NCBI RefSeq assembly: GCF_944321625.1
Contig: NZ_CALUMA010000047.1
Span: forward strand, 1-64,000
Source: an uncultured Slackia sp.
Lineage (GTDB): Bacteria > Actinomycetota > Coriobacteriia > Coriobacteriales > Eggerthellaceae
DNA length: 64,000 nt
Reading direction: 5' to 3'
The position numbers and the translations under genes are program-made. Every line of letters begins with the position of its first letter. The stretch's first letter is position 1. Below are positions 30,897 through 64,000 of this stretch, piece after piece. A model generated the notes under the pieces. The model did no database searches. It was not told the DNA's origin and saw only the letters and a list, made by a program, of their open reading frames with translations.

Positions 30897-30926
30897 GAGG
30901 GCGGCAACCTCTCGGTCACCGCCCTC
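30897..30926 (-). terminator. Terminator downstream of the MFS-CBS gene
   Basis: GAGGGCGG pairs with CCGCCCTC (8 bp, 14-nt loop), followed on the minus strand by TTTGTTG. Two direct copies of CTCTCAATGAAAT lie between it and the gene (30925 and about 30972). Confidence 0.65.
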
Positions 30927-31018
30927 TCTCAATGAAATGGAAATGCACTTTAAATGAGATAAAGATGCTCTCTCTCAATGAAATAACAATGCTCTCAAAC
31001 CCAAAGAGAAATCACGCT

Positions 31019-31303
31019 CTAGTGCGAAAGGCGCGCTTTTTCTTCTTCTGTCAGCATGTTGGCTACGAACTTCATCAGGCTGCGGCGGCGCACCACGCCC
31101 ACCAGTTTGCCGTCGTCGAGCACCGGCAGCTCTTTGAGGCGCTTCTCAGCAATCATGCGGCACGCATCTTCAAACGAGGCATCGGGGGCAATGCCCACCA
31201 CCTGCTTGGTGGCAATCGACGCCACGTCGGTATCGGCCATACGCAGCGCGCGATCGCGCACGTTCTCGTCATCGGGCATGCGCAACGCCATGAAGCCCGA
31301 GGC
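31019..31303 (-). pseudogene. Second CBS domain displaced from the MFS transporter by a frameshift
   Basis: This frame encodes ASGFMALRMPDDEN followed by a complete CBS motif (VASIATKQVVGI, KELPVLDDGKLVGVVRR), but has no ribosome-binding site of its own. It should continue the preceding transporter gene. The tandem GCCT-GCCT at 31304-31311 is a 4-nt duplication; removing one copy joins the frames into one 669-codon gene with a normal CBS pair. Confidence 0.8.
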
Positions 31304-33032
31304 GCCTGCCTGTCACAGTTTGCATCTCATCGCCAAACGTGCGCAGGATATCGCTGTTGGACACGTAGCCCTTCGCCATACCCTGGTCGTCCACGACAAC
31401 CGCGCCGCTCGCATCGGCCTCGATAAGGGCGCGCGCGGCAAACGCCATGCTCGCTCCCTCGGAGATGGTCACGGGGCTTGCATCCATAACGTCGGCGACG
31501 CTGTGGCGCCCGGGCTTGACCTCGACGCGCGCAGCGGACGGCGCAACGTCGGTCTTCTTATTGCGCACGAACACCGCGATTATGACCAGCGCGACGATCG
31601 AAATCACCAGCACCGCGATGTAGGACAGGTGGTATCCGGCGAACACGCGCTCGACCTCGGACCCCTGCGCGACGCTTGCGGAGCCCACGGCGCTGAACGA
31701 CATGATGAACGCCGTGCCCAGCGATGCGCCCACCTGGTTCATCGTATTGGTGACCGAGGTGGCATGCTGCACCAAATCGTTGCTCAGAGAGTTCACGCCC
31801 CAGGTGTTGATGGGCGTGAACAGCAGCTGAATGGCCAGGCAGGTTGCCACATTCGCCACGATGACGTAAGGAACCACGCTATCCATGCCGTAGAACGCCA
31901 TGCCCACGCAGCCAACCACGAGCATCACGACGCCGATGAGCGAGATGGCGCGCACGCCCGAACGGTCGAACATGCGGCCGGCGAAGAGGCTGCCGAAAGC
32001 GCCCAGAACCGCGCCCGGCAGCGTGATGAGGCCGCTCACGGTGGCAGAGTGGCCCAGCACGTTCTGGATGTAGAGCGGCATGAGCACGCTCAGACCGATG
32101 AGGATGGCCTGCAGAACGGCACACGTACAGGCGGCCACGCGATAACGGCGGCTCTTGAACACCTCGAGGCGCAGCATGGGCTCGTCAAGCTTGAACTGGC
32201 GCCATGCGAACAGTCCGAGCAGAACCACGCCCACAACCATAAGCACCACGCACACCACGGGCGCGGGCGACGAGGCGAACGACGAGATGCCATAGAGCAG
32301 CGATACCAGACCCAGCGACGAGAGCACGATGGATAGCGCATCGGCAGACGTACGAGGGAAGCCCTCGCGATTGGCGAGTACCTTGGCGGCGAACACCAGA
32401 ACGATTGCCGTGCACACAACGACCACGCAGAAGAGCGCACGCCAACCCACCATATCGACCAGCAAACCGCCGAGCGACGGGCCCACGGCAGGAGCAAATG
32501 CAATGACCAGGCTCACCAAGCCCATGGCCTGACCACGGCTTTCACGCGGGAACGACAGCAGGATGAGCGACATCACCATGACCATCAGCACGCCGGTGGA
32601 CGCGGCCTGCATGACGCGGCCCAGCAGCAGCACGGCAAACACCGGAGCGATGGCCGCCACCAGACTGCCGGCGCCGAACAGAATCATGCCGCCGATGAAC
32701 AGCTGGCGCGTGCTGAAGCGGCCCATGAACCACGCCGCTAGCGGGATGACCACGGCTTCAACCAGAGCGTAAGCCGAGGTCAACCACTGCACCGTAGTGG
32801 CATCCACATTCATGTGCACCATGATGGACGGCAGTGCCGGCGAAAGCAGCGTCTGGTTGAGCACCACCAGAACCGCGCCTGCCAGCAGCACGATTACCAT
32901 GCGCTTGGCTTCCTTCGTAAGACCTAGAGATCCCATGTTCCACACTTTCTGTCGCGAATCGGGGTGCGCCATCGAATACGGCCAGGCGGGCTCGGACTCG
33001 GGGCCAAGCGAACTTTGTGTGCCTTTCGGCAT
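31269..33032 (-). CDS. MFS drug-efflux transporter (DHA2/EmrB type) with one in-frame CBS domain; 3' frameshift
   Basis: 587 residues from ATG 33032, preceded by AGGAGG with 8-nt spacing. About 14 hydrophobic helices; the start of the membrane domain is LLSPALPSIMVHM, with WLTSAYALVEAV and GRFSTRQLF characteristic of EmrB/QacA-type proton antiporters. After the last helix comes a cytoplasmic CBS domain (VADVMDASPVTISEG, GYVSNSDIL), unusual for this family. The frame then ends in an unrelated tail (GRRLGLHGVAHAR) because of the 4-nt duplication at 31304-31311. The transporter part is intact and may work. It is divergent from a marR gene with shared operators. Confidence 0.85.
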   Translation of the reverse strand: MPKGTQSSLGPESEPAWPYSMAHPDSRQKVWNMGSLGLTKEAKRMVIVLLAGAVLVVLNQTLLSPALPSIMVHMNVDATTVQWLTSAYALVEAVVIPLAAWFMGRFSTRQLFIGGMILFGAGSLVAAIAPVFAVLLLGRVMQAASTGVLMVMVMSLILLSFPRESRGQAMGLVSLVIAFAPAVGPSLGGLLVDMVGWRALFCVVVVCTAIVLVFAAKVLANREGFPRTSADALSIVLSSLGLVSLLYGISSFASSPAPVVCVVLMVVGVVLLGLFAWRQFKLDEPMLRLEVFKSRRYRVAACTCAVLQAILIGLSVLMPLYIQNVLGHSATVSGLITLPGAVLGAFGSLFAGRMFDRSGVRAISLIGVVMLVVGCVGMAFYGMDSVVPYVIVANVATCLAIQLLFTPINTWGVNSLSNDLVQHATSVTNTMNQVGASLGTAFIMSFSAVGSASVAQGSEVERVFAGYHLSYIAVLVISIVALVIIAVFVRNKKTDVAPSAARVEVKPGRHSVADVMDASPVTISEGASMAFAARALIEADASGAVVVDDQGMAKGYVSNSDILRTFGDEMQTVTGRRLGLHGVAHAR

Positions 33033-33121: not shown

Positions 33122-33135
33122 TTGACGAGCGTCAA
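33122..33135. promoter_or_regulatory. MarR-type operator 1
   Basis: TTGAC-GAGC-GTCAA, a perfect 5-bp dyad in the divergent region between the MFS and marR genes. The TTGAC half could also serve as a -35. Confidence 0.65.
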
Positions 33136-33148
33136 TTGTATGATTCAC

Positions 33149-33162
33149 TTGACTAATGTCAA
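33149..33162. promoter_or_regulatory. MarR-type operator 2
   Basis: TTGAC-TAAT-GTCAA, with the same half-sites as the dyad 27 bp away (centre to centre). It lies 32 bases before the marR start. Confidence 0.65.
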
Positions 33163-33193: not shown

Positions 33194-33667
33194 ATGATTG
33201 AGGAACGCGATATTGACAGCATGATCAAAGCGTCGCTGTACTTCCACGAGCTGTTCAAGAAAACCATCCTCGCCACGCCACCCGCCGAGGTTGTTACAAA
33301 AACCCAGATGGACATCCTTCTCACGCTGTACGCCGATGGACCCATGAGCATGTCAGCTCTGAGCTCGCACGTGAATATCGCGCCCGAACAGGCCACGCGC
33401 GCCATCAAGAACCTGCGCGAGCGCGGGCTGGTGGAAAGCGACCGCGACGAGGAAAACCGACGCGTGGTAATCGCCCGACTCTCCGAGAAAGGCACGCTGC
33501 TGCTTGACGACCACACGCGCGAACTCCACGCAAACCTACAGGCTAGTCTCGAAGGGTTGACCGATGAAGAGGTAGCCCAGCTTGCCGAAACCGCCCGTGT
33601 TGCCACCCGCCTGCTGGAAAAGACAGGATTCAGACACGTGGTGACCGACCCGAAGATTCGCAAATAA
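33194..33667 (+). CDS. MarR-family transcriptional regulator
   Basis: 157 residues from ATG 33194 (GGAGG 6 nt before it). Winged HTH signatures: TKTQMDILLTLYADG, SMSALSSHVNIAPEQATRAI and the wing VESDRDEENRRVVIARLSE. It probably represses the divergent MFS gene and itself through the two TTGAC-N4-GTCAA dyads. The ligand is unknown. Confidence 0.9.
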   Translation: MIEERDIDSMIKASLYFHELFKKTILATPPAEVVTKTQMDILLTLYADGPMSMSALSSHVNIAPEQATRAIKNLRERGLVESDRDEENRRVVIARLSEKGTLLLDDHTRELHANLQASLEGLTDEEVAQLAETARVATRLLEKTGFRHVVTDPKIRK

Positions 33668-57046: not shown

Positions 57047-57086
57047 GATGCATCAATCCGCAGATGGAAGAGCCTTTGCGCGAAGA

Positions 57087-64000
<6,914 letters not shown>

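Follow-up and report, generated by a model that had tools for sequence, protein, structure and literature searches.

The closest described counterparts of the transporter studied here are the DHA2 drug:H+ antiporters EmrB, QacA and EfpA, which have the same 14-helix-type MFS core by both profile and fold. EmrB and QacA are without a C-terminal pair of CBS domains, and sequence profile matches stop before the CBS region. Nucleotide-gated transport by means of cytosolic CBS modules, the likeness of interest here, is described for OpuA, MgtE and CorB/MpfA in the available part of a 2023 review (PMC10710835); these systems have other transporter folds, and their ligands have been measured, whereas the ligands considered below are only predicted from sequence. 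The same part of the review mentions MFS-CBS fusions without a tested example, and the survey of Willson et al. (2019), as cited there, likewise describes CBS domains fused to MFS transporters. Among the titles and abstract openings of the open-licence literature, this review was the sole mention, and a study of an MFS-CBS exporter was not recognised.

A transporter gene divided between two reading frames

The locus lies in the window, the 64,000-nucleotide stretch of DNA analyzed here, which comes from an uncultured Slackia sp. with a genome of 2,396,312 bases in 124 contigs. Frame A (31269–32936, minus strand; 555 aa from the ATG at 32936) encodes a DHA2/EmrB-type MFS transporter, a first CBS domain and a foreign tail. 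Pfam identifies MFS_1 and one CBS domain in this frame (CBS1, PF00571, 31338–31499, minus strand, with the S-x-x-D motif SNSD) and one CBS domain in a second frame, frame B, that continues to a stop at 31019 (CBS2, PF00571, 31061–31225, minus strand). CBS2 scores as an entire domain (48 bits), and within the window the two CBS domains are thus carried one per frame and not in a single polypeptide. The original prediction, made from the letters of the window, had placed the end of the transporter frame after the first CBS domain, in a foreign tail, with the second CBS domain in another frame, and both the frames and the Pfam matches agree with it.

The two frames part at a tandem GCCT-GCCT (31304–31311; AGGC-AGGC on the coding strand), as had been proposed. 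By inspection of the sequence, the first copy occupies 31304–31307 and the second 31308–31311, and the repeat sits in no homopolymer. In frame A, DEMQTVTG is followed by RRLGLHGVAHAR, an out-of-frame tail of 12 residues (31272–31307, minus strand), and by the stop (31271–31269); frame B reads GASGFMALRMPDDEN and runs through to the stop at 31019. Sequence comparison finds the orthologue of S. equolifaciens to be without the extra four bases, and it reads TVTGASGFMALRMP across the junction in a single frame. Taken as the sole evidence, a tandem 4-mer is no more than expected by chance, as 230 exact doubled 4-mers occur across the 64-kb window; the GCCT doublet becomes meaningful because of the comparison with relatives, not through the repeat alone.

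Removal of one GCCT had been predicted to restore a frame of 669 codons. The continuity is borne out by S. equolifaciens, but the length is not: the ATG at 33032 is probably too early as a start, and the ATG at 32936 is preferred. As the S. equolifaciens frame is closed a few codons upstream of the start equivalent to 32936, the natural protein would comprise about 640 aa. The assignment to the DHA2 type holds, with a match to NCBIfam TIGR00711 of 287.5 bits against a cut-off of 230.2. A structure model of the intact orthologue (mean pLDDT 88.8) matches the folds of EmrB, QacA and EfpA in Foldseek, with EmrB and QacA on top and EmrB (8zal) as the best match (TM 0.83 by target length); the 14-helix MFS fold like that of EmrB and QacA is therefore seen on the model of the intact orthologue, not on the window protein. 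The core is thus of DHA2/EmrB type and is predicted to perform proton-driven drug efflux.

The MFS-CBS-CBS architecture among relatives

The nearest orthologue, from S. equolifaciens (NZ_QIBX01000013.1; loci L009/L047), is about 90% identical and resembles the window locus in its MarR and Usp neighbors as well, but differs in being a continuous protein of 641 residues. We scanned named genomes with search words lying within the transporter part and kept the best 80 of 431 loci. A continuous MFS-CBS-CBS protein was present at 76 of these 80, which answers the original call for a comparison with orthologues; two loci are cut by contig ends (L057 and L090) and two are without CBS domains (L102 and L121). 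A split between the CBS domains was found in none of the best 80 of 431 loci, nor do any of them end at the same point with the second CBS domain as a separate gene, the pattern that had been named as grounds for refuting a broken fusion. We also aligned the window with 27 selected relatives, and both CBS domains are continuous in 27/27; this set omits L024, which meets a contig end, L027, which lies at a contig start, L028, whose frame has no CBS domain, and the distant paralogues L003–L008. Of the genomes compared, this one alone has the four extra bases. One locus in the collection (L049, 3944–7914) carries two MFS-CBS-CBS genes in tandem, directly adjacent on the same strand.

The fusion itself had been called unusual. 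This view is not upheld, as the MFS-CBS-CBS fusion is common in Eggerthellaceae (76 of the best 80 of 431 loci) and the available part of PMC10710835 mentions MFS-CBS fusions. We scanned 198 genomes from the phylum at E-values no higher than 1e-60, scoring six candidates or fewer in each, and obtained matches that reach the second CBS domain in 7/7 genomes of the same family, this one included. Matches in the remaining 30 genomes that had one stop by profile position 504 of 661, a scan in which weaker fusions could escape.

Control region and predicted nucleotide sensing

Upstream of the transporter, a divergent gene (33194–33667, plus strand) encodes a MarR-family regulator (Pfam MarR, 51.4 bits, scanned from 33197), and downstream a universal stress protein (Usp) gene is convergent with the transporter. 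Both neighbors have close counterparts beside the S. equolifaciens gene, and a MarR homologue adjoins the transporter in 10 of the best 80 of 431 named loci. Between the convergent Usp and transporter genes, at 30924–30996, a 24-base repeat occurs in roughly three imperfect copies.

A sigma-70-like promoter of the transporter (33135–33162, minus strand; TTGACA-16-TACAAT, 11/12) is accompanied by two perfect palindromes TTGAC-N4-GTCAA, at 33122–33135 and, over the -35 hexamer, at 33149–33162. These are the only two in the window, against 0.06 expected, and both lie between the MarR and transporter genes. Comparable sites occupy the same place in S. equolifaciens, and partial ones occur in three more relatives. 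The palindromes are probably MarR operators, to which the regulator would bind.

An S/T-x-x-D ribose-binding motif is the usual mark of nucleotide sites in CBS domains. The CBS1 motif ends in D in 77/77 full-length frames (SDGD in 62, TDGD in 10, SNSD in 4 and SNGD in 1). At the equivalent position CBS2 mostly has SRRN, and RRRS in S. equolifaciens and the window; the CBS2 pattern missed 3/77 frames. As the motif is kept in CBS1 and deviates in CBS2, this suggests CBS1 as the main predicted nucleotide site, and nucleotide gating of the pump is a plausible prediction. A match to the c-di-AMP cyclase domain DAC (PF02457) was not found in this genome, which is rated 100% complete, whereas 11/14 control genomes were positive. 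The missing match weakens c-di-AMP as a ligand and makes it unlikely; adenine nucleotides are the likelier predicted ligands of the CBS pair.

Origin and consequences of the break

Compared with S. equolifaciens, dN/dS is 0.074 for the MFS and CBS1 part (543 codons) and 0.079 for CBS2 (94 codons), and in each piece the differences fall mostly at codon position 3. Neither piece is visibly decayed by these values, although ratios this low are set mostly by the period before the break and give no date for it. When 413,088 bases of this genome were set against 1,677,297 bases from S. equolifaciens, 169 frames proved orthologous and nine raw splits appeared. Of these nine, this gene alone has the codon-position-3 pattern in both pieces; most of the others resemble 5' extensions or shadow frames, and one frame change relative to S. 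equolifaciens, on contig C7 of the same genome (L177, 9769–10274), is ambiguous. Within the window alone, the gene is the sole split among 40 frames kept, some of them shadow frames. A poor genome riddled with frameshifts is not supported by one clear and one ambiguous split in 169 orthologous frames. Being the only clear split among the frames compared, the break appears isolated, which fits a young mutation and also a single assembly error.

We consider it probable that the break is a real, young 4-base slippage duplication that truncates the Bateman module of an otherwise intact pump. The main rival is a sequencing or assembly error, in which case the strain has one GCCT copy and an ordinary continuous gene. 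It would suit a single lesion in an assembly fragmented into 124 contigs, with the sequence on both sides still constrained and no split between the CBS domains in relatives (0/80; best 80 of 431). Yet errors in base calling do not usually double a mixed 4-mer, a point of general knowledge that leans us towards mutation, and an error-prone assembly sits poorly with one clear and one ambiguous split in 169 orthologous frames, so that we regard this explanation as possible but rather doubtful. Since the pump type is widespread in the family, the break has the look of an ordinary, isolated event, either a mutation or a slip in assembly.

The split could also be functional, with a CBS2 peptide of about 86 residues made by coupled restart at the ATG at 31279 and pairing with CBS1 in trans. 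This candidate start in frame B (31277–31279, minus strand) lies 8 nt upstream of the frame-A TGA (31271–31269), with ATG and TGA within 11 nt, and CBS2 is a whole domain (48 bits) under constraint. The closeness of the ATG and TGA may, however, be due to chance, a ribosome-binding site for this ATG is not evident, and the arrangement occurs in 0/80 relatives (best 80 of 431), which renders a functional split decidedly improbable. We give very little credence to the broader proposal that these drug exporters are gated by the adenine nucleotide level atop MarR induction and that here the sensor is in two pieces, with CBS2 supplied in trans by coupled restart. Programmed ribosomal frameshifting could join frames A and B where they overlap, between the stop of frame B, a short way upstream of the repeat, and that of frame A, but a +1 shift would be needed, a known slippery motif was not recognised by eye, and the relatives are continuous and need no shift; we hold this to be exceedingly improbable.

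Under the preferred explanation of a slippage duplication, a single tandem 4-base duplication of the replication-slippage type in this Slackia strain would have put the Bateman module (the CBS pair) out of frame partway through, in a DHA2-type pump under MarR control. One frame still holds the pump core and CBS1 intact, and another holds an intact CBS2. The cell would make a 555-residue pump that keeps its transport capacity, or the product would be unstable; such a pump would have lost the paired CBS module and hence its presumed nucleotide control. In relatives with a whole gene, control would have two tiers: release of MarR would induce transcription of the pump gene, and an adenine nucleotide bound to CBS1 would tune the protein. 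An intact MFS-CBS-CBS paralogue of 640 aa is encoded elsewhere in the same genome (L002), and it may make the loss of the broken pump bearable. As a genome finding alone, the break is ordinary; if real, this natural truncation would be a ready comparison for the role of the CBS pair in MFS exporters. Eggerthellaceae, in which pumps of this family are abundant, live in the gut and encounter many compounds from plants and drugs.

A related MFS-CBS-CBS copy in another Slackia (genome G010, locus L127, 1272–3183) changes frame at residue 82/83 and meets an in-frame stop ahead of the CBS pair. These lesions suggest that pumps of this kind are lost in the genus Slackia; the copy comes from another branch of the transporter family, and its lesions may be an artefact of assembly. 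Towards the end of the window, 57078–63998 belongs to a very long frame that corresponds, in S. equolifaciens, to an open frame of 2,951 residues.
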